Origin: Tuwongella immobilis
GTDB taxonomy: Bacteria > Planctomycetota > Planctomycetia > Gemmatales > Gemmataceae
Assembly (NCBI RefSeq): GCF_901538355.1
Contig: NZ_LR593887.1
Span: 5,556,920-5,620,919 of the forward strand
DNA: 64,000 nucleotides
Direction: 5' to 3'
Shown here: positions 37,891 to 61,926 of the stretch, piece after piece
Numbering within the stretch: the first letter of the stretch is position 1
Layout: the number at the start of each line of letters is the position of its first letter
Made by a program: the position numbers and the translations under genes
The notes under the pieces: generated by a model
The model's database searches: none
Told to the model about the DNA's origin: nothing
Seen by the model: only the letters and a program-made list of their open reading frames with translations

Positions 37891-37918
37891 ATTGTATCTA
37901 GTCAATCATCATTGTCAA
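37891..37918 (-). promoter_or_regulatory. Near-consensus promoter of gltB
   Basis: On the minus strand a perfect TTGACA (37913-37918) and TACAAT (37891-37896) are separated by 16 bases. Transcription would start around 37884, about 65 bases before the gltB ATG. This is one of the two best sigma-70-type promoters in the window. Confidence 0.75.
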
Positions 37919-50147: not shown

Positions 50148-50254
50148 GTGTTCGCTGAAAATGCGAAAAATCTGAAACTTGTCCGCGAAGGAATCGGTAT
50201 CCCCAGCAACGAATCTTGGTGGTTTCACACCCGTTGCCTGGGGAGCTTCACTTC

Positions 50255-52003
50255 ATGCGTCTGCATCGCCTGTTCGGGCAATTCTGCCTGATTGCTTGCG
50301 CCATCTCAAGTCGAGCGGCCATCGCCGCCGAGACACCGCCACCGCTGCAACTGGTCCCCGCCGACGCGGATTTCGTCGTCGAGATTCCCAATCCCCGTCT
50401 GTTGGCCGAAACCCTGCTCAAGCATCCCAACCTGAAGGCTGCACGCGAGTTAGAAGCGGCCAAAGAGTTGCTCGAATCCACGAATCTGACGCGATTCCTC
50501 CAGTTGGTGAGCTACTACGAACGCGATCTGGGCGTGACCTGGCCGCAACTGCTGGACCAACTCGCCGGGCGCGGAATGGTGGTCGCCGGCAAATATGCCA
50601 ACCCCGACAACACCGCCCTGCTCATCGGCGGAACCGACGATGAGCAGATGCAACGCTTCCTGGCCTTGGTCCGCAAGGTGATTGAATCCGAATATTCCCG
50701 CCAGGAAAGCAAGCTGGTGGTGGAAGAATCGACCGGCAACGGGGTCACGATTCTCTCGTTGGGGGGCCAAGCCTCGGTGATTCACTTCGATCGCACCCTC
50801 ATCATCACGGGCAAGCCGGTGAAGTTGGAGGAGGTCGAGAAATTCCGAGCGGCAAGCCTCGCACGCTTAGTCGACAGTAAGAAATTCAAGGTTAGCCGCA
50901 ATCTGAAGCCGAAATCGCCGCTCGCCTGGGCGTGGTTCGACCTGGAAGACACGAAGAAATCGCCCGAAGCCCAAGCCATCTTGGCCACCCCGCGCAATGA
51001 CCCGATCACGACATTTCTGTTCGCGGGGCTATTCGATATCTACCGCCGCTCGCCATCGCTGGTGGTGGGGCTGACCGAACAGAACGCCCAAATCAAGCTG
51101 GGCATCAAACTTCCCGCTGGCCGAGAAGGACTATCGCCGGATACTGTGCTGCATCTGAGCCATGATTCCAAGACAATGAACAGCCAACCGCTGCTGACAC
51201 CGCCGGGCACCGTGTTCAGCCACAGCTTCTATCTGGACTTGGCCGCCTTCTGGAATGACCGCGAAAAGATCTTCGCCGAAGGAATCGCCAAGAGCATCAC
51301 GGAAGCGAACAAGCCGTTCATTCCGGGGCTGAGCAACCTGACGCTGAGCAAGATTCTCACGTCGTTTGGGCCGCATCATCGCATTGTGGTAGCTCAGGTG
51401 CCGCGAAGCACGTATGCCACCGCCAAGCCGAACACGGAACTGCCGGATAGCGCCTTCGTGACGACGATTCCCGAGGCGAGCAATCGGCAAGCGATCAACG
51501 CCGCGCTGCGGGCCGGTGGGCTGGCCCTGAGCACCGTCGTGAAGACGCGATACACGCAAGAGAAAATCGGCGAGGTGACGCTGGTGGGCTACCGCTTCGA
51601 CGAGAAAACCCCGCTGCCCGACGATGAAGAAAATCTGCGATACAACTACAGCCCCTGCTTCGCATTCGTGGGCGATCAGTTGATTGTCGCCAGCTCGCTG
51701 GATCTGGGCCGCGTGCTGATTGCCGACCTGCAAAATCCCAAGGGCAAGCCCTCGCAAAAATCGAACATGCAAATGGGCTTCTATGCCGAAGGAATTGCGA
51801 AACTGGTGACCCGTGCCCCGGAAAGCCTGATTACGCAAGCGATTCTCAGCCGCGCGTTGACCATCGAAGAAGCCAAGAAGGAAGTGGAACAAGGCATCGC
51901 TTGGCTGAATCGATTGGGCAAGATCGGCATCACGACCGAATATCTGCCGAAATCCTTCGAATTATCCTTCACCTGGACCCCGCGAACCACCCCGAGCAAG
52001 TGA
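50255..52003 (+). CDS. Secreted hypothetical protein next to DUF1800
   Basis: A 582-residue protein with a signal peptide (MRLHRLFGQFCLIACAISSRAAIAA). The mature part has no recognised domain; it begins LQLVPADADFVVEIPNPRLLAETLL, followed by KHPNLKAARELEAAKELL, resembling a repeated planctomycetal module of secreted proteins. The ATG at 50255 follows GGGGAG nine bases upstream. Only 14 bases separate the stop from the DUF1800 gene, and the DUF1501 gene comes next, so the three may share a transcript. The function is unknown. Confidence 0.85.
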   Translation: MRLHRLFGQFCLIACAISSRAAIAAETPPPLQLVPADADFVVEIPNPRLLAETLLKHPNLKAARELEAAKELLESTNLTRFLQLVSYYERDLGVTWPQLLDQLAGRGMVVAGKYANPDNTALLIGGTDDEQMQRFLALVRKVIESEYSRQESKLVVEESTGNGVTILSLGGQASVIHFDRTLIITGKPVKLEEVEKFRAASLARLVDSKKFKVSRNLKPKSPLAWAWFDLEDTKKSPEAQAILATPRNDPITTFLFAGLFDIYRRSPSLVVGLTEQNAQIKLGIKLPAGREGLSPDTVLHLSHDSKTMNSQPLLTPPGTVFSHSFYLDLAAFWNDREKIFAEGIAKSITEANKPFIPGLSNLTLSKILTSFGPHHRIVVAQVPRSTYATAKPNTELPDSAFVTTIPEASNRQAINAALRAGGLALSTVVKTRYTQEKIGEVTLVGYRFDEKTPLPDDEENLRYNYSPCFAFVGDQLIVASSLDLGRVLIADLQNPKGKPSQKSNMQMGFYAEGIAKLVTRAPESLITQAILSRALTIEEAKKEVEQGIAWLNRLGKIGITTEYLPKSFELSFTWTPRTTPSK

Positions 52004-52017
52004 ACGGAGCCTTTTCC

Positions 52018-53415
52018 ATGGCGAATCGTCTGGACATCCGCACCGCCTGGGAAGCGTACCGCCCCAGCGCCAGCAACCCCTGGGATCTCCGCAAGGCCGG
52101 GCACCTGTACCGCCGGGCCGCATTCGGGGGCACCTGGAACGAATTGCAATCCGCCCTGAGCGACGGCCCCGAAAAAACCATCGAGAGACTGCTCGATGGT
52201 GGGCCGGATACCGCCAAATTCGAATCGTCGACCTTGGATTTGTCCAAGCCGATTCGCCAAGGGGCCGATCCCCAGTTGGCCGCCGCCTGGTGGCTGTATC
52301 GCATGCTGTATACGCCGCATCCGTTGGCCGAAAAGATGACGCTTTTCTGGCACAACCACTTTGCGACCAGCCAGGCGAAAGTGCAATCGCTGCGGCACAT
52401 GCTCGGCCAATACGATCTGCTCCATCGCCATGCGCTGGGGTCGTTCGGGCCGATGCTGCAAGCGATCTCCAAAGATCCGGCCATGCTCATCTGGTTGGAC
52501 ACGGTCGATTCCAAAGTCGGCAAGCCGAATGAAAATTATGCCCGCGAATTGATGGAATTGTTCAGCCTGGGCATCGGCAACTACACGGAAAAGGACATCC
52601 GCGAGGCCGCCAAGGCGTTCACCGGCTGGGGCGTGGCCAACAATGCCTATGCCTTTGTCGCCGCCGATCACGACAACACCGTCAAGAATGTGCTGGGCAA
52701 ATCGGGCAACTTCAACGGCGAAGACATCGTCGAAATCTGCCTGGATCAGCCGGCGTGCGCTCGATTCCTGGTGACGAAGTTGTATCGATACTTCATCAAC
52801 GAATCGGCACCGATTCCGCCGGGATTGTTGGAGCCGTTGGCCGAGCAATTCCGCCGCAGCAAGTATGACATTCGCCAACTCGTTGGCACGATGTTACGCT
52901 CGAATTGCTTCTTCGCAGCGGAAAATTATCGCGCCCGCATCAAATCGCCGGTCGATTTCGCACTCGGGATTCTTCGCGGACTCGAAGGCCGGGTCGGCAC
53001 CACCGGATTGGCCGATGCCATCGAATCACTCGGCCAAGTGCTATTCCAACCGCCCAGCGTCAAAGGCTGGGACGGCGGCACCACCTGGCTCAACGGCCAA
53101 ACGCTGCTGTTCCGGCAGAATTTGGCGCTGGCCATGACGTCCACCGAAGATACGCGGTTTGGCCGACGCTGCGATCCATCGCAACTCGTCCGCAAACATG
53201 CGAAATCGTCGGATACCGAAATTGTCGATTTCCTGTTGGATCTGTTCCTGCAAGGGGACGTTCCGCCGGAATCGCGGCAACAACTGCTGGGCTACTTGGC
53301 CAACGCCACCAAGCAGAAGCCGCCGGTCTACTGGACCCAAGACGATGTCGCGTCGCATCGCATTCGTGCGGTATGCCACCTGGTGTTGGCATTGCCGGTC
53401 TTCCAACTCGATTGA
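52018..53415 (+). CDS. DUF1800 domain-containing protein
   Basis: A 465-residue protein of the DUF1800 family. It contains LYRRAAFGGTWNEL near the start, AAWWLYRMLYTPHPLAEKMTLFWHNHFATSQAKV, NENYARELMELFSLGIGNYTEKDIREAAKAFTGW and FLVTKLYRYFINE. The HNHF and ARELMELFSLG blocks are family signatures. No signal peptide is visible, which is common for the family. It is nearly always next to a DUF1501 gene, as here (33 bases). The ATG at 52018 follows CGGAGCC. The molecular function is unknown. Confidence 0.94.
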   Translation: MANRLDIRTAWEAYRPSASNPWDLRKAGHLYRRAAFGGTWNELQSALSDGPEKTIERLLDGGPDTAKFESSTLDLSKPIRQGADPQLAAAWWLYRMLYTPHPLAEKMTLFWHNHFATSQAKVQSLRHMLGQYDLLHRHALGSFGPMLQAISKDPAMLIWLDTVDSKVGKPNENYARELMELFSLGIGNYTEKDIREAAKAFTGWGVANNAYAFVAADHDNTVKNVLGKSGNFNGEDIVEICLDQPACARFLVTKLYRYFINESAPIPPGLLEPLAEQFRRSKYDIRQLVGTMLRSNCFFAAENYRARIKSPVDFALGILRGLEGRVGTTGLADAIESLGQVLFQPPSVKGWDGGTTWLNGQTLLFRQNLALAMTSTEDTRFGRRCDPSQLVRKHAKSSDTEIVDFLLDLFLQGDVPPESRQQLLGYLANATKQKPPVYWTQDDVASHRIRAVCHLVLALPVFQLD

Positions 53416-53447
53416 TCACCGTGAGCCTCTGACAAGGAATGCAACCA

Positions 53448-54677
53448 ATGTCCACGAATCGCCGTGACTTTCTGAAGACCGCCAGCCTGCTGGGTTGGGG
53501 TGCCACCGTTCCGACTTTCCTGGGCAAGACCGCTCAGGCCGCGCCGAACGCCGCCAAGCCCGGTGCCAAAGATACCATTCTGGTGGTGGTGCAACTCACC
53601 GGGGGTAATGACGGGTTGAATACGGTCATCCCGTTCACCGACCCCACGTACAAAAAACTGCGTCCCACCCTAGCGATTCCCGCCGATCAGGTGCGCAAAC
53701 TGAATGATAGCATCGGGTTGCATCCGCGAATGAATGGCTTCGCGGATCTGCACGAAGATTCGAAGCTGTGCGTGGTGCAAGGGGTGGGCTATCCCAATCC
53801 CAGTCAATCGCACTTCCGTTCGATGGATATTTGGCACGCCGCCAGCACCGCCGAAACGCTGACGGAAGGCTGGTTGGGCAAGTCGCTCAAGACGCTCAAG
53901 TCGCCGAGTTTCCACTTGGCCGCGGGCAACGAATCGGCCCCGCTCGCGCTCAGCGGAGCGCCCGCACGTGTGCCGTCGATTACCTCGTTGGAAGATTTCC
54001 AACTGAAGACCGGCGGCTCATCGGGTGTCGATGCGCAAGCACAACGCAAGCTGATCGAATCCGCCGCAGCGATGCCGACCGGCCAGGGGAACCTGCTCGA
54101 CTTTGTGCAGCGCACGGCCACCAGCACCTACGACAGCAGCAAGCGCTTGCAGGAAATTGGCAAAAATTATGTGCCGAAGGTCACCTATCCGGGGACGGCC
54201 TTGGCCGCGCGGCTGCGGTTGGCAGCGCAGTTGATTTCGGCGGATGTCGGGGCGCGGATTTTCTACGTCTCCATGGACGGCTTCGACACGCACGCCAGCC
54301 AAGCGGCCTCGCACGGGAATCTGCTCGCCACCTTCAGCGATGCCATCAGCGCGTTCTACCGCGATGTCGCCGCCCATGGCCATGGCGATCGGGTGATGGT
54401 GATGACCTTCTCCGAATTCGGACGCCGAGCGGGGGAAAACGGCAGCGAAGGGACCGATCACGGCTCCGGGGCACCGATGTTCCTGGTCGGCAATCGCGTC
54501 CAAGCGGGTCTGGTCAACGCGCATCCCGACTTGACGAAACTGGACGATGGCAACCTGCGGCATAGCATGGACTTCCGACAGGTGTATGCCAGCGTGTTGG
54601 AGCAATGGCTGGGCGTGCCGAGTGAGCCGATTCTGGGTGGCAAGTTTGCACCCGCTGCCGTGCTGACTCGCAGCTAA
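53448..54677 (+). CDS. DUF1501 domain-containing Tat-exported protein
   Basis: A 409-residue protein of the DUF1501 family, related to alkaline phosphatase/sulfatase folds. A twin-arginine signal opens it (TNRRDFLKTASLLGWGATVP). VVVQLTGGNDGLNTVIPF, VQGVGYPNPSQSHFRSMDIW, ISADVGARIFYVSMDGFDTHASQ and MTFSEFGRRAGENGSEGTDHGSG are the conserved blocks with metal-binding-type Asp, His and Gly. The ATG at 53448 follows AAGGA nine bases upstream. It is paired with DUF1800; the substrate is unknown. Confidence 0.95.
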   Translation: MSTNRRDFLKTASLLGWGATVPTFLGKTAQAAPNAAKPGAKDTILVVVQLTGGNDGLNTVIPFTDPTYKKLRPTLAIPADQVRKLNDSIGLHPRMNGFADLHEDSKLCVVQGVGYPNPSQSHFRSMDIWHAASTAETLTEGWLGKSLKTLKSPSFHLAAGNESAPLALSGAPARVPSITSLEDFQLKTGGSSGVDAQAQRKLIESAAAMPTGQGNLLDFVQRTATSTYDSSKRLQEIGKNYVPKVTYPGTALAARLRLAAQLISADVGARIFYVSMDGFDTHASQAASHGNLLATFSDAISAFYRDVAAHGHGDRVMVMTFSEFGRRAGENGSEGTDHGSGAPMFLVGNRVQAGLVNAHPDLTKLDDGNLRHSMDFRQVYASVLEQWLGVPSEPILGGKFAPAAVLTRS

Positions 54678-55931: not shown

Positions 55932-56738
55932 TCACTTGACCGGGGGCAATTCCAACGGCGGCAGTTCCAGATTCAGCGGCGGCAACGGTTCCAGCATTGG
56001 AGCGGGCTTGGCGTCGGGAATCTTGACTTCCGGGGCCGCGGTCGGGGCCGCAGTCGGGGCGACTGGAGCCATCGGAGCCGGAGCGGACTTCGGAGCATCG
56101 AGTTCCGGCAGAATCAACGGCGCATCCAGCGGAGCCGGAGGAGCCGGAGCGTTCTTGACCGGGCTATTCACCGGCGGCAGCGTCAATTCCGGCTGCGGCA
56201 TCGGCGATGGCATCGGCTTGGCATCGGGAATCGGAGCCAACGCAGGAGCCTCGATCGGATCCAGTTTGATCGCAGGCGGGGTCATCGAGATCGGCGGAGC
56301 CACCGGCGCGGGCAATTCCAGATTCACCGGCTGAATTTCCGGCTTGGCTTCCGGCATCGCAACCACGGGCGTGGCATTGGTTTCCGGCTTCTTGCTCATC
56401 GGAGCCGCAGGCATTCCGGGCATCGGCATCGGCATCGGCACGCCACCCGCCCCTGGAGCAGCACCACCAGCGCCAGCTCCCGCAGCACCCGCACCCGGAT
56501 CGCCCGCAGGCGGAGCCACTGGAGCAGGGGCTTGGACCGCAGGCAGCGGTTCCAACTTGCTAAGATCGACCTTCGGCGCGGACGGAGCCCGCATGCTTTC
56601 GTATTCGCTGTAATCGAGATACAGCAGCACCGTGCCGCCGATCATCGCCAACAGCGAGATGGCCAGCAATCCGGTATAAGCGTCGTTTCGTGGTTTGACA
56701 GCCGGTTCGGAGCGGCTGCGAGATCGGGCAATCGCCAT
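55932..56738 (-). CDS. Membrane-anchored proline/alanine-rich protein
   Basis: A 268-residue protein. A short basic cytoplasmic segment (MAIARSRSRSEPAVKPRN) is followed by one membrane helix (GLLAISLLAMIGGTVLLYL). The remaining 220 residues are Pro/Ala-rich (APAPVAPPAG, PMPMPMPGMPAAPM, LPPLNLELPPLELPPVK). The chain is likely extended and reaches away from the membrane. The ATG at 56738 follows GGAAGGA. It is the last of four minus-strand genes for anchored proteins; a hairpin (56811-56838) separates it from the preceding gene. Function unknown. Confidence 0.85.
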   Translation of the reverse strand: MAIARSRSRSEPAVKPRNDAYTGLLAISLLAMIGGTVLLYLDYSEYESMRAPSAPKVDLSKLEPLPAVQAPAPVAPPAGDPGAGAAGAGAGGAAPGAGGVPMPMPMPGMPAAPMSKKPETNATPVVAMPEAKPEIQPVNLELPAPVAPPISMTPPAIKLDPIEAPALAPIPDAKPMPSPMPQPELTLPPVNSPVKNAPAPPAPLDAPLILPELDAPKSAPAPMAPVAPTAAPTAAPEVKIPDAKPAPMLEPLPPLNLELPPLELPPVK

Positions 56739-56810
56739 AGTACGCGTTTCCTTCCGTTTCCGGTCGAGTCCGGGAACATCAGTTCATCGGCAACGGGTTG
56801 AATGGGAGCG

Positions 56811-56838
56811 GTTGTCCGGTTGGCTTCCACCGGACAAC
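56811..56838 (-). terminator. Hairpin between the coiled-coil and Pro-rich genes
   Basis: GTTGTCCGGT (56811-56820) and ACCGGACAAC (56829-56838) pair perfectly over 10 bases with an eight-base loop, 35 bases after the stop of the upstream gene. There is no U-tract. It may reduce or end transcription toward the Pro-rich gene. Confidence 0.45.
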
Positions 56839-56872
56839 GGGATGACAGCATGCGACCTTGTGGGGGTCACAC

Positions 56873-57796
56873 TCAACGCGTTCCCAGCGACAGGGTTCCC
56901 ACGGTATCGCCGGTTTGTGCCTTGTCGCGGGTCGCCGGAATAAACTGGCCAACCGCTTCCTTGGCGCGGGCCTGCCGAATTTGCAATTTGCCCAGGAACT
57001 TCGAGGCATTGGGATTGTCCGGCACCAGGCGATAGACCGCCAGTTCCGCCCCCGGTTGCACGCCCGCATCCGAGCCAACCGAAATCGTGGTCAATCCGTT
57101 GGGCAGAATGTTGGTGATTTGGCCGGTAAGATTCGCCGGGACCGCCGGACCAGTGCTGCTCAGAATCGCAGGGCTGCTGGCGCCGGTGCCACTGCTGGCC
57201 ATGGCGTTGCCGGTGCTGCCACCCACGGAGCGCACTTGCGCTTCCAGGGCACGCACCCGCTGCGACATATCTTCCATGGTTTGCAGCAATCGCTCGTTGC
57301 GATCCTTGGACGACTTGTACGCAATTTCCTTTTCGGTCGCCTTTTGGCGTTCCGTGTTCACCTGAGTTCGCAGGGCGATATTATCCGATTGCAATTGGGC
57401 TTCGATCTTCTTCAGATCGTCGCGTTCTTTACGAATCCGGTCCAATTCCGCCACCGAGGTATTTTGCGTCGTGCCCGAGAGTTCTTTCTCCTGGGTCAAC
57501 GCCACCTTATCTTTTTCGAGCCGGGTGATATCTTCTTTCGACGTATCCAGTTGCGCTCGCAGGTCCGCCACTTGACGGCTCAGTTCCCGAGCGCGGGCTT
57601 GTTCGGTGTCTACGTCCAACTTACGCTGCGTCATTTCGGCTTTGTAGGCGGCTTCCGCAGTCTTGGCGACATCGGCGGCCTTCTGATACTCCACGCGCCA
57701 ATTGGTGCGCGTCACGAATACCACCACGACAAACCCGCTGACCAGCAAGCTGAACAGCAGGTTCAGAAAGACGAGAATTTTCCCCACCGCTGTCAT
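56873..57796 (-). CDS. Membrane-anchored coiled-coil protein
   Basis: A 307-residue protein. Residues 5-27 form a membrane helix (GKILVFLNLLFSLLVSGFVVVVFV). Residues about 35-185 are a long coiled coil rich in Glu, Lys, Gln and Ala (ARARELSRQVADLRAQLDTSKEDITRLEK). A C-terminal domain of about 80 residues follows a Ser/Gly linker (ITNILPNGLTTISVGSDAGVQPGAELAVYR), similar in pattern to an SH3/barrel-like domain. The ATG at 57796 follows GGAGGATC. It has its own strong promoter at 57950-57977, so it need not depend on the upstream pair. The protein probably lies mostly outside the cytoplasm. Function unknown. Confidence 0.85.
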   Translation of the reverse strand: MTAVGKILVFLNLLFSLLVSGFVVVVFVTRTNWRVEYQKAADVAKTAEAAYKAEMTQRKLDVDTEQARARELSRQVADLRAQLDTSKEDITRLEKDKVALTQEKELSGTTQNTSVAELDRIRKERDDLKKIEAQLQSDNIALRTQVNTERQKATEKEIAYKSSKDRNERLLQTMEDMSQRVRALEAQVRSVGGSTGNAMASSGTGASSPAILSSTGPAVPANLTGQITNILPNGLTTISVGSDAGVQPGAELAVYRLVPDNPNASKFLGKLQIRQARAKEAVGQFIPATRDKAQTGDTVGTLSLGTR

Positions 57797-57949
57797 CGCC
57801 GATCCTCCGGAAACGGAACGAAGCCCGTCGAAGCCTGACCGGGCATTCGTCTACCGCTGGAATTGTCATCCCAATCGCCTTCGAGTAAGAGCGTCCTCAC
57901 TCGAACACCTGTCATCCCATCCGTGAGCGCCACGGGCACCATGACCGGG

Positions 57950-57977
57950 CTTATAGCGAGCCGAGCAATCCTGTCAA
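57950..57977 (-). promoter_or_regulatory. Strong promoter upstream of the coiled-coil gene at 57796
   Basis: On the minus strand a perfect TTGACA (57972-57977) and TATAAG (57950-57955) are 16 bases apart. The -35 box overlaps the stop codon of the preceding gene. The leader would be about 145 bases and includes TTCGAGT/ACTCGAA (57880-57905), a 7-bp hairpin. Confidence 0.65.
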
Positions 57978-58759
57978 CGCGGAGTATTCTTGCCGGTGTT
58001 GAGCGACAATTCACCGCGGTACGCCTTCAATTCGTTCAACCGATTCGTGAGCGAATTTTTCCGTTTCAGCAGCAACTGCGTTTCCGCCAATCCATTGGTC
58101 AACGACGGTCGCAGATAATCGATTTCGTCGTTGATCCGCACCAACAGGTCTTGTTGTTCCCGCAGCAGGGTCCGCAGCCCCTTCTTGTCCGCGACATCAA
58201 TCAACTCGTTGGTCAGCATCTGATGCTTTTCGATCAGATCTTTTTCTTTCAATTGCGAGTCTTTGATTTCGCCGGCAATCCGATCCAACTGCGAGCGATA
58301 GGCATCCACCGCCACCAGCGATGCACCCGTGGGGCTTTCCTTAATCGGGGCACGCCCCTCCAGCTTGCTGATGTCCAGATTTCCGCTCGGATCCAGCACC
58401 AGCTCTTGCACCGGCTCCGCAACGGCCTTCTTCTGGCCATTCGCATCGGTGTAGCTGCCCGATTGCACCAGTTCGAGTTGGCTGGCATAGAACGCTTGAC
58501 GGGCAGGACGTTCCTTTTCCAACGCCGTCAATTTGGTGTTCGCAGCCGTCCAGGAATATTTTGCGCGATATCCCGCACGATTGAGCGTTTTGATTTTGTC
58601 TTCCAGCTTCGTCAGCCGGGTATTCTTCCACTCTTCGCCACCCCGAGCGGGGTTCGGCTTCAGCGGAACAAATTGCGTGTAGACCGAGGTGGCCAACGTC
58701 AACGCCATCATACTCGACGCGAAGATCAGGCCAACCAGTAGCTTCCCGAAGAAGGTCAT
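57974..58759 (-). CDS. Membrane-anchored coiled-coil protein
   Basis: A 261-residue protein with an N-terminal membrane helix (FFGKLLVGLIFASSMMALTLATSVY), then two coiled-coil regions (residues about 45-95, and about 150-250 with LDRIAGEIKDSQLKEKDLIEKHQML), separated by a short globular or loop segment. The ATG at 58759 follows AAGGAG. It lies 27 bases after the gene at 58787 and is translated in the same direction, so the two are probably one transcript. No enzymatic motif. Confidence 0.85.
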   Translation of the reverse strand: MTFFGKLLVGLIFASSMMALTLATSVYTQFVPLKPNPARGGEEWKNTRLTKLEDKIKTLNRAGYRAKYSWTAANTKLTALEKERPARQAFYASQLELVQSGSYTDANGQKKAVAEPVQELVLDPSGNLDISKLEGRAPIKESPTGASLVAVDAYRSQLDRIAGEIKDSQLKEKDLIEKHQMLTNELIDVADKKGLRTLLREQQDLLVRINDEIDYLRPSLTNGLAETQLLLKRKNSLTNRLNELKAYRGELSLNTGKNTPR

Positions 58760-58786
58760 GACCGCTCCTTAGTGTGCCCAGATGCT

Positions 58787-59866
58787 TCAGCGTCCGCTAC
58801 CGACTTCGCGTTTGCGAATGTCCGATTCCAGTCCGACGATCGTATCCAATGCCTCCCCAATCTCGCGTTGAATTTGGAAGGCTTGTTGTTCCAAACCGGC
58901 CAATTTCACCAGGCCATCTTTGGTTTCCTGACGGGCTTTGGCCAACTCCATCTTCACGGCGGCGACTTCGGCTTCGCGGGCTTCCACGAGCGTCTGGTGG
59001 TCGGCCGTCAACTGAATCTGCGAGGCCAATTCCACCGACCGTGACCGAACTTCCAACGCGAGAAACAGTGCCTTCTGCACCAATTCCTGATAGCGCGGCT
59101 CAAACAGCGATTGCTCATCGGTCATGATCGTCTGCAAGCGCGTCGCCATGAGTTGCAGGCTGGCCGCCTGATTCGACACCACGCCGACATACGTTTCTTG
59201 CCCCAGCAGGAACAACACACGATCTTGCCAGGCCGGTTCCGGGCTGAGGTGATACAGCAAGTGCCCGATTTCTTCTCGACGCTCGGCAATCGTCCGGTGC
59301 GTCACTTTCCGGCCATCGGCATCCACCGCCGCATCGCGGGCGACCGGGCTGAGGAGCACTTCGAACCGACGCGACAACTCGCCTCGCAGTTGCTCCAACG
59401 CATTGTTGGCGTTGGCCATCGAGCGGATCTTTTCTCGCTCTTCAAAGGTTTTCGGCTGATTGATGAGATAGGCGAACAGCTTGCGAACTTTGGCCGCATC
59501 CCCATCCAACGAATCGAGCACTTCGTTGATCTTCGTTTGGACCCGCTTCACTTCGGCGTTCAGGCTGGTGACTGCCCCGCCGCCCAGTTCATTGCCCCCC
59601 GCAGCCGGGATAAAGAACTGATTGAAGATCGATGTCGGAATTTCAGGCACCGGCTGCCGATCCGGATATTGGAAATCCAGAGCCACAAACCCATCGGAGG
59701 CCGACGTTTTGCTCTCTTCTAATGGTAAGCCAGCAACCGCAATCTCATACTTGAAGATGCCAATGGCCCAGTCGGTGCGGATCTTATAATCCATCATCCC
59801 AACATAGACAAAGCCACCGGCGGCTAACAGGTTGAGCACAATCAACACTCGACCCAGAATGCCCAT
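58787..59866 (-). CDS. Membrane-anchored coiled-coil protein
   Basis: A 359-residue protein with an N-terminal membrane helix (GILGRVLIVLNLLAAGGFVYVGM). A region of unknown fold (residues 30-150) follows, then helical, Gln/Glu/Arg-rich segments with coiled-coil character toward the C-terminus (ARQETKDGLVKLAGLEQQAFQIQREIGEAL). The ATG at 59866 follows CAGGAGT eight bases upstream; longer starts add a non-hydrophobic stretch before the anchor. It is the first of the four minus-strand genes and faces a Ser/Thr kinase across a 425-base region. Confidence 0.85.
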   Translation of the reverse strand: MGILGRVLIVLNLLAAGGFVYVGMMDYKIRTDWAIGIFKYEIAVAGLPLEESKTSASDGFVALDFQYPDRQPVPEIPTSIFNQFFIPAAGGNELGGGAVTSLNAEVKRVQTKINEVLDSLDGDAAKVRKLFAYLINQPKTFEEREKIRSMANANNALEQLRGELSRRFEVLLSPVARDAAVDADGRKVTHRTIAERREEIGHLLYHLSPEPAWQDRVLFLLGQETYVGVVSNQAASLQLMATRLQTIMTDEQSLFEPRYQELVQKALFLALEVRSRSVELASQIQLTADHQTLVEAREAEVAAVKMELAKARQETKDGLVKLAGLEQQAFQIQREIGEALDTIVGLESDIRKREVGSGR

Positions 59867-60025
59867 GGTCGGGACTCCTGCGGACCTGCGACGTTCACCC
59901 CGCCCCGATCGCATTGCCGAACTTCCCTGCAACGCGGACTCGCTATGGTGTGATTCTGACCGACGAGGGGAATCTTGACAAGAAATTCCATCGTGAAAAC
60001 CAGGCAATCTACGCCCAGATCACCT

Positions 60026-60031
60026 ATTATA
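60026..60031 (-). promoter_or_regulatory. Perfect -10 box TATAAT facing the coiled-coil cluster
   Basis: TATAAT is exact on the minus strand, but no good -35 box lies 16-18 bases away. Leader to 59866 would be about 155 bases. Confidence 0.3.
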
Positions 60032-60164
60032 CCGATTACACCGGCATCAGGTGTCCGTTTCCCGTTTTGCACCTCATCGACGAGTCTGGGAGTTTGATTC
60101 GATCCCCGCTTGAGAAAGATTCACATCTCTCCCAAAAAATTTGCGAGATTTATTCATTTTTCAG

Positions 60165-60173
60165 TGCTACAAT
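60165..60173 (+). promoter_or_regulatory. Extended -10 of the kinase gene
   Basis: TGCTACAAT matches an extended -10 (TGnTATAAT-like with one mismatch). It lies in an AT-rich stretch about 120 bases before the kinase start. Confidence 0.35.
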
Positions 60174-60291
60174 CTCCCACATCAGCAGGTCACGCAGCCT
60201 CGACAATCATGCCCATCGATTGTCAGGCGAATATCGTGTTGGATTGTGCCGTTTCGGTTCCGATCGTGCTCGTAGCTTCGGGGGATCTCGG

Positions 60292-61926
60292 TTGGATACT
60301 TCCAAATCCACCCTGCAACAGATCGGTCAATATGACATTCTCCATAAAATCGCCGAGGGCGGTATGGGGACGGTCTATAAGGGCCGCCATCGCCAATCGG
60401 GACTGCTCGTCGCCATCAAAATTATTCCACCCGCCACATCGCGCAACCCCGTGCTGCTGCGCCGGTTCGAGCAAGAATTCCGCGCCGCCAGTATGCTCGA
60501 CCATCCCAACATCGTCAAAGCAATTGAATACAACGGCCTTGGTCAATCGCCATTTCTGGTGATGGAATTCGTCGATGGCGAATCGCTGGGCCAAAAAATC
60601 GAACGCGATGGGCCCATGCCGGAAATGGACGCCATTCGCATCCTCGCCCAAGTCTGCCAAGGGCTGCACCGCGCCCACAAGCAAGGGCTGATCCACCGGG
60701 ACGTCAAACCGGACAATATCTTGGTCACGGCCGATGGCGTCGCCAAACTCACCGACCTGGGCTTGGTGAAAGACGTCGAAGGCGAAATGAACCTCACCCG
60801 CACCGGACGCGGCTTGGGCACCCCCCACTTCATGGCCCCCGAGCAGTTCCGCAACGCCAAAAACGTCGATGTTCGCAGCGATATTTATTCGCTCGGTGCC
60901 ACCCTTTACATGATGGTCACGGGCGAAATTCCGTTTGGCAAATGCGGCCCGCTCGATTGTTGGATGAAAAAAGTCCACAACGATTTCGCGTGGCCCCGAC
61001 AATTGAATCCGCATGTCAGCGAACGCGTCGATTGGGCCATTCGCCGATCCATGAGCGGTGATCCGACCCTGCGCCCCGCCTCCTGCCGCGAGTTCGTCGA
61101 AGATCTGACCGGGCAAACGATTCGACCTCAGAATCATCCGGAACACGCCCAAACGCAAGATTTGTGGTATCTGGTCTATCGCGATGATTTGGGCGAGATG
61201 CACACCGTCAAGGGGAGCACCGACGGCATTCGCCGAGCGCTCAGCGAAGGGCTGCTGGGCGATGCGGAGAACATTCGCGCCTGCCGCACCAAGCAAGGGC
61301 CGTTCCAACCGCTGCGTGGCATTCCGGAATTTCGGGATCTGGTGATTGATCCTTCGGTGGCTCCGCCGCCATCCACGGCCACCAAAGCCGCCACCCCGGC
61401 ATCGGCGATGACCACACCGCCGACCGCCGGAATGCGCACGCCAGCCAGCAACGGCACCCCAAACCAATCCGCACAATGGAATCGCAGCGGCGGCCGTCCC
61501 CCGATTCCACCCACGGGCACCGCACCACCCGCCGATGCCGAATCGGTCAATCTCGATGGTCCGCTCGACCGGTCGCAATCCGCATCCGCATCCGGCGCAC
61601 GATCGTCCGCCTCCGGCCGACTCAGCCCGCCCAGCGGATTAGGTCAACCCACGCCGTCGGGACGCATGCCCGCCCCCGGAACCTCCGGGCGGCTGCCAGT
61701 CTCCAACCCCGCTGCAAACTACCAGCCTACAACGGCTTATGAACCGATGCAGCATGGCCAAATTCCGGGACAAAATCAACCACCCGTCGTCCCATTAGTT
61801 CCGCAAGCGCTCCCGGAAAATCCCGAGGACACTGGCGGCACCGATTGGGTCATGCTTCTGATGGTCATGGTGTTGAGCGCATCCGTCGCCGTCGTCGCCA
61901 TGATGTACATCCAACAAGGTCGCTAA
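60292..61926 (+). CDS. Tail-anchored Ser/Thr protein kinase
   Basis: A 544-residue Hanks-type kinase. The ATP loop is IAEGGMGTVYKG, the catalytic lysine Lys43 (VAIKII), the catalytic loop HRDVKPDN (His135, Asp137), the metal-binding motif DLG instead of DFG, and MAPEQF. The domain ends near residue 280. A second globular region (DLWYLVYRDDLGEMHTVKGSTDGIRRAL) resembles a GYF_2/PilZ-like small domain; that assignment is unsure. Then a long Ser/Pro/Gly-rich linker leads to a C-terminal membrane helix (WVMLLMVMVLSASVAVVAMMY), so the kinase faces the cytoplasm. The TTG start at 60292 follows GGGGGA by six bases; an upstream ORF extension lacks kinase similarity. Likely targets are unknown. Confidence 0.9.
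   Translation: MDTSKSTLQQIGQYDILHKIAEGGMGTVYKGRHRQSGLLVAIKIIPPATSRNPVLLRRFEQEFRAASMLDHPNIVKAIEYNGLGQSPFLVMEFVDGESLGQKIERDGPMPEMDAIRILAQVCQGLHRAHKQGLIHRDVKPDNILVTADGVAKLTDLGLVKDVEGEMNLTRTGRGLGTPHFMAPEQFRNAKNVDVRSDIYSLGATLYMMVTGEIPFGKCGPLDCWMKKVHNDFAWPRQLNPHVSERVDWAIRRSMSGDPTLRPASCREFVEDLTGQTIRPQNHPEHAQTQDLWYLVYRDDLGEMHTVKGSTDGIRRALSEGLLGDAENIRACRTKQGPFQPLRGIPEFRDLVIDPSVAPPPSTATKAATPASAMTTPPTAGMRTPASNGTPNQSAQWNRSGGRPPIPPTGTAPPADAESVNLDGPLDRSQSASASGARSSASGRLSPPSGLGQPTPSGRMPAPGTSGRLPVSNPAANYQPTTAYEPMQHGQIPGQNQPPVVPLVPQALPENPEDTGGTDWVMLLMVMVLSASVAVVAMMYIQQGR

Follow-up and report, generated by a model that had tools for sequence, protein, structure and literature searches.

The window analysed here is a stretch of 64,000 nucleotides from the genome of Tuwongella immobilis (6.69 Mb in a single contig; NZ_LR593887.1, positions 5,556,920 to 5,620,919) that carries a cluster of four consecutive minus-strand genes, named P1 to P4, and a divergent Ser/Thr kinase gene next to P1. 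P1 (58787-59866, 359 amino acids, aa) has an N-terminal membrane anchor followed by a helical body of variable length. P2 (57974-58759, 261 aa) has an anchor like that of P1 and a helix-rich body. P3 (56873-57796, 307 aa) features an anchor, a helix that extends to residue 190, a linker and a carboxyl-terminal six-stranded barrel (model residues 224-300, coordinates 56897-57127 on the minus strand), while P4 (55932-56738, 268 aa) is a small membrane protein whose conserved core surrounds one helix and which ends in a long Pro/Ala tail. None of the four products reaches the cutoff of any Pfam or NCBIfam family. On sequence grounds they are nevertheless genes and not chance open reading frames (ORFs), because homologues in relatives keep the gene order; the ATG start of P1 is consistent with the starts found in relatives.

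An earlier description of this DNA, termed here the original prediction, had already proposed four consecutive minus-strand genes whose products have one N-terminal membrane helix each. Both statements hold, a single hydrophobic segment being present near the amino terminus of each protein. Its assignment of long coiled coils to three of them is well founded for P3, whose profile matches solved coiled coils (best E 1.2e-6), weaker for P1 and not sustained for P2, where the heptad signal does not rise above that of shuffled sequences. P4 had been described as an extended Pro/Ala chain. This is correct for the T. immobilis tail (28% Pro, 19% Ala) but not for the family, whose conserved part is limited to ~35 residues around the membrane helix and most of whose members have no long tail.

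Relatives were sought in a sample of 102 Gemmatales genomes, in which P1 was found in 75 and P3 in 95; the search with the P4 core gave relatives that include Gemmataceae, for example Zavarzinella formosa (L144). Loci were read in 40 stretches from 37 genomes and in the window (41 loci, 38 genomes), a choice that favoured long contigs and good matches and is not a random sample, and their ORFs were assigned to P1-P4 by competing profiles. The complete order P1-P2-P3-P4 on one strand is found in 28 of the 41 loci, two of them with an additional P3 and four with an additional P4. The incomplete loci have P1-P2 only (3), P3-P4 only (7) or P2-P3-P4 (3). Median gaps are 35 bp between P1 and P2, 148 bp between P2 and P3, and 39 bp between P3 and P4: the cluster is made of two tight pairs, P1-P2 and P3-P4. 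The original prediction had named conservation of gene order as a check, and scattering of the genes is not seen, though two of the 38 genomes (G072 and G032) have the pairs separated. At L063 and L064 they lie 1.47 Mb apart on one contig, and at L070 and L071 on different contigs. P4 is duplicated in tandem (1-2-3-4-4) in L074, L083, L093 and L095. A contig from a metagenome-assembled genome (MAG) titled Candidatus Kuenenia stuttgartiensis (L153) has a P1-P4 cluster closely resembling that of Planctomycetaceae MAGs, probably owing to a wrong label or to contamination.

The two pairs are in agreement with the proposal that the cluster has at least two transcription units. A promoter-like site on the minus strand (57950-57977, TTGACA-16-TATAAG, 11/12 matches) is present between the pairs as had been claimed, and the wider median gap between P2 and P3 accords with it. 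Sites with 11/12 matches occur twice in the window and in none of 12 resampled windows; the other one lies at 37891-37918 on the minus strand (TTGACA-16-TACAAT). The site at 57977-57950 escapes a stricter promoter scan because that scan requires T at the last position. The hairpin reported between P3 and P4 (56811-56838, minus strand) does have a stem of 10 perfectly paired bp and a loop of 8, but it is not followed by a T-run and is therefore not a canonical terminator; a role in intrinsic termination is not supported. Perfect hairpins of this kind, some of them overlapping, number six in the window as compared to 0-4 in the resampled windows.

The AlphaFold model of P3 (mean predicted local distance difference test score, pLDDT, 82.1) shows a single helix spanning residues 3-190 with high confidence, a disordered linker and the six-stranded barrel at residues 224-300. 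A helix rises 1.5 Å per residue, and the part of the P3 helix beyond the membrane would measure ~24 nm. The best Foldseek match of the barrel is FlgT (E 2.6e-3), while VIA aligned P3 with the N-terminal barrels of F1-ATPase (Z ~10, root-mean-square deviation 1.6-3.7 over 65-81 residues). MreC is not among the Foldseek or VIA matches listed for P3, which excludes nothing. Comparison of the P3 barrel profile with the first barrel of MreC, using an MreC set from the same operons as P3 (see below), gave 65.7% and a score of 33.4; controls with MreD, PBP2 and MreB remained at 0.0-0.6%, and the 60 column shuffles reached 13.4 at most.

The length of P3 is strongly conserved. In 16 of 41 non-Gemmatales sequences exactly 220 residues separate an invariant Lys/Arg of the anchor from an invariant Gly of the barrel (standard deviation, sd, 4.2 over the set), and the matched length over 116 genomes is 284 (sd 4.0). 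Within Gemmatales the coefficient of variation of total length among P1-P3 is lowest for P3 (0.037) and highest for P1 (0.154). Since the spacing is near constant outside the order despite a coil identity that averages 14%, the length of P3 can be read as being under selection, as might be expected of a strut or ruler. P3-like barrels are also found in other proteins: L067 codes, between P3 and P4 and directly downstream of P3 (12261-12869, plus strand), for a 202-aa P3 paralogue composed of a coil and the P3 barrel, and several genomes have other ORFs of 400-700 aa with such a barrel.

The P3-P4 pair extends far beyond Gemmatales. In a sample of 246 Planctomycetota genomes the P3 profile matches 225 at a threshold of E 1e-5, where the weakest matches may be to coiled coil only. 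A small one-helix P4-like protein follows P3 in 32 of 40 loci read from this sample; outside Gemmatales it was called by size, position and hydropathy, as the P4 profile itself scores low there. The gene mreB is found downstream of P3 in 29 of these 40 loci and lnt upstream in 21. The place of P3 was listed for 146 genomes and that of MreB for 150. Of the 94 genomes present in both lists, 85 have mreB on the strand of P3 and 142-1414 bp downstream of it, the remaining nine having the two genes on different contigs. Reading one locus with Pfam gave the succession CN_hydrolase (lnt), P3, P4, MreB (421 bits), two unmatched genes at the mreC and mreD places, a transpeptidase and RodA/FtsW; a second locus has, at the mreC place, a gene that matches MreC models with scores under their equivalog cutoffs. 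The array is lnt-P3-P4-mreBCD-PBP2-rodA, and in most of the phylum sample P3-P4 are part of the mre operon. Two tandem P3 genes precede mreB in the non-Gemmatales locus L116, and two adjacent P3 matches are likewise found in G166. A P2-like gene is located upstream of P3, with low scores, in six of the nine loci from the class to which the window belongs.

MreB is found above the NCBIfam cutoff in none of the 102 Gemmatales genomes, as compared to 220 of the 246 in the phylum sample. Pfam MreB matches do occur in all 102, but they were not taken as MreB: the best has E 5e-22 and none is above the MreB equivalog cutoff. They are found mostly in open frames of ~380 or 600 aa, which we take, by eye only, to be PilM- or DnaK-like. 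MreC (PF04085) is above cutoff in none of the 102 genomes, three of which gave weak matches, and RodA/FtsW is above threshold in none, while 10 of 14 control genomes were positive. The missing MreB, MreC and RodA/FtsW matches fit a statement in PMC8567305 that most genes for conventional peptidoglycan have not been identified in T. immobilis. Gemmatales keep P3-P4 without MreB or RodA/FtsW above threshold.

Survival of the pair after loss of MreB and RodA/FtsW would also be explained if P3-P4 were partners of Lnt in lipoprotein maturation or at the outer membrane, mreB being a mere operon neighbour. The 21 phylum loci with lnt on the same strand upstream of P3 speak for such a role, and they include one from a genome without MreB match (L109). 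However, mreB follows P3 in the same set of loci more often than lnt precedes it and the P3 barrel resembles that of MreC, while no neighbour family except the kinase recurs in more than 10 of the 41 Gemmatales loci. An Lnt partnership appears rather improbable.

The kinase gene (59914-61926, plus strand; Pkinase 164 bits) is located directly upstream of P1 and divergent from it in 25 of 31 P1 loci (one, L086, cut by the contig edge). The architecture of its product is constant: a kinase domain, a domain of ~65 residues named here the X domain (61156-61362, plus strand) and a C-terminal membrane helix. The ORF is 670 aa long as listed, as compared to 411-554 aa in uncut relatives, and just 48 bp lie between its start at 59914 and that of P1. 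The spacing and the shorter relatives indicate that the true kinase start is probably further downstream. The X domain was detected in 93 of the 102 Gemmatales genomes, mostly as a single copy; in the phylum sample it was found in the window's own genome and in none of the 245 others. A search of PDB sequences with the X domain found nothing. Its model has the order strand-strand-helix-strand-helix (pLDDT 73.9), and seven of the top 15 VIA matches are GYF domains (one by our reading of the U5-52kD entry), with Z of only 3.5-5.1. No GYF match in Pfam was obtained for nine members at E up to 10, and the domain may at most be called GYF-like, as judged from its model. A fold like the C-terminal domain of SPAK/OSR1 was considered and dropped (E 0.49 or worse, TM-score ~0.3). 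Binding of a GYF-like X domain to the Pro-rich P4 tail was rejected as a general mechanism because the P4 charge pattern puts the tail outside, most relatives have no long tail and the domain has no GYF family match.

A kinase of this type might suggest that the locus codes for a generic signalling scaffold under kinase control, in which the anchored proteins are sensors or substrates and the link to mre is only history. Its position beside P1, its lineage-specific domain present mostly once per genome and its permanence with P1-P2 in both genomes where the pairs are split are in favour of this possibility. P3-P4 are found, however, phylum-wide where the kinase X domain is not, and the near-constant length of P3 suggests a mechanical role, which renders the signalling scaffold unlikely.

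P1, P2 and P3 share homology over their first ~36 residues, as assessed by hhalign (P3-P2 96.7%, P3-P1 94.9%, P2-P1 78.7%), and the set therefore appears to have grown by reuse of one anchor. The P1 body is confined to Gemmatales: the 245 genomes from outside the order gave two matches, each limited to the anchor. It is unlikely that the genes are neighbours without joint function, as two independent operons whose conservation has separate causes. The pairs are indeed apart in two genomes, and a promoter-like site lies between them, but 28 of 41 loci, drawn from a diverse order, have them side by side, and three of the proteins have this homologous anchor in common.

The reading that we favour, and to which we give an even chance, is that P3 is an MreC-like periplasmic strut that outlived its elongasome and was joined in Gemmatales by P1, P2 and the kinase. 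In much of Planctomycetota the conserved pair P3-P4 opens the mre (elongasome) operon. P3 oligomers would stand on the inner membrane through their N-terminal helix and cross the periplasm with a helix of nearly fixed length, the barrel docking a partner at a fixed distance out, while P4 would be a small membrane partner at the foot of P3. In relatives that have an elongasome the pair may organise wall synthesis beside MreC. The ancestors of Gemmatales would have lost MreB and RodA/FtsW and retained P3-P4 as an envelope strut, to which P1 and P2, built from the same anchor with other helical bodies, were later added as further struts. In Gemmatales the set, possibly as a physical complex, would hold or space membranes, and the divergent membrane-tethered kinase, also an addition, probably sets its assembly state from the cytoplasmic side. 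The envelope-spanning or scaffold complex envisaged in the original prediction is retained in so far as the gene order is conserved, two transcription units are apparent and P3 is a long strut with an extracytoplasmic-type barrel. Its meaning is changed by the presence of P3-P4 in the mre operon of most of the phylum sample, by the restriction of P1 to Gemmatales and by the kinase, which belongs to the locus.

A periplasmic location of the P3 barrel is suggested by Cys content. In Gemmatales, Cys accounts for 0.13% of P1, 0.085% of P2 and 0.075% of P3 residues, as compared to 1.1% for the remaining genes of these loci, and in the last 85 residues of P3 for 0 of 3400 residues (40 Gemmatales proteins) as compared to 9 of 3485 (41 others). 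The N-terminus of the P3 paralogue of L067 reads as signal-peptide-like, and flanking charges favour an N-in orientation for P4 and P2.

Several observations weigh against the periplasmic strut and its proposed history. Flanking charges are neutral for P1 and P3 and do not settle their membrane side. A low Cys content (0.35%) is also seen in coil-like windows from other genes, for which reason the figure for the barrel is preferred. The spacing between anchor and barrel is looser in Gemmatales (sd 9.1, median 222, 38 sequences). In the window's class mreB follows P3 in only one of nine loci (L104). Among 20 named phylum genomes in which P3 was not matched, 16 contain MreB, so that MreB has no general need of P3. 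As P3 in turn is present in 16 of 20 phylum genomes without MreB match, neither absolutely needs the other. No kinase is found next door in 6 of the 31 P1 loci. MreC has two barrels and P3 one, the P3 helix is much longer, and P3 has no match to the Pfam MreC family (PF04085).

How budding planctomycetes acquire their shape and divide without FtsZ is described as an open question in passages of PMC6952346 and PMC5147048. The question is sharper for Gemmatales, where neither MreB nor RodA/FtsW reaches the threshold, and a pair of genes that opens the mre operon elsewhere yet persists in this order, with a kinase attached, provides a testable entry point. Tentatively, it may be proposed that Planctomycetota have an undescribed elongasome pair, the fixed-length MreC-like strut P3 together with P4, and that Gemmatales, after loss of MreB and RodA/FtsW, combined it with a dedicated kinase and two proteins that share its anchor, rebuilding it as an envelope system for spacing membranes or for helping division without FtsZ and MreB. 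PMC10632474 counts 108 essential, phylum-specific proteins of unknown function in Planctopirus limnophila; P3-P4 are candidates for this group, which can be checked in the existing data set. A description of P3, P4 or the kinase X domain was not found in the literature searched, supplements not being covered. The system is of a known kind, an MreC-like elongasome scaffold. That literature describes neither this variant nor its position at the start of the operon, nor its persistence where MreB is missing.

Elsewhere in the window, a DUF1800 gene followed by a DUF1501 gene (51901-54677, plus strand) appears to be an ordinary pair, and an ORF of 595 aa (50216-52003, plus strand) has no Pfam match at E 0.1.

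Four known systems can be compared to the products of this locus. The kinase resembles the PknB/Stk1 PASTA kinases in its kinase domain, which scores 262.9 bits with the PknB PASTA model, and in having one membrane helix. It differs from them in that it falls below the 450-bit cutoff of this model, has its helix at the very C-terminus, and carries the X domain in place of PASTA repeats, for which no match was found. RodZ, the membrane link of MreB, has a cytoplasmic helix-turn-helix domain before its membrane helix. P4 is similarly small, has one helix and is encoded beside mreB in relatives, but only ~20 residues precede its helix and it has no Pfam match. RodZ is reported as absent from Planctomycetes in a passage of PMC5147048. 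The C-terminal domain of FlgT (PF16538) is the best Foldseek match of the P3 barrel and gives a weak Pfam match (E 0.062), which at 14.2 bits is below the cutoff of 27; there is no flagellar context near P3 in the loci read. The closest comparison is with MreC, which PMC8804602 presents as the periplasmic scaffold of the elongasome. In Gemmatales P3 is not encoded with mreB, MreB being absent there above cutoff, and relatives that have mreB encode a separate MreC two genes further on. Membership of P3 in the MreC family was rejected on account of its one barrel and missing PF04085 match. The likeness is retained: in both proteins a coil follows the single N-terminal membrane helix, both feature a six-stranded barrel, and MreC, like P3 in relatives of Gemmatales, is encoded together with mreB.

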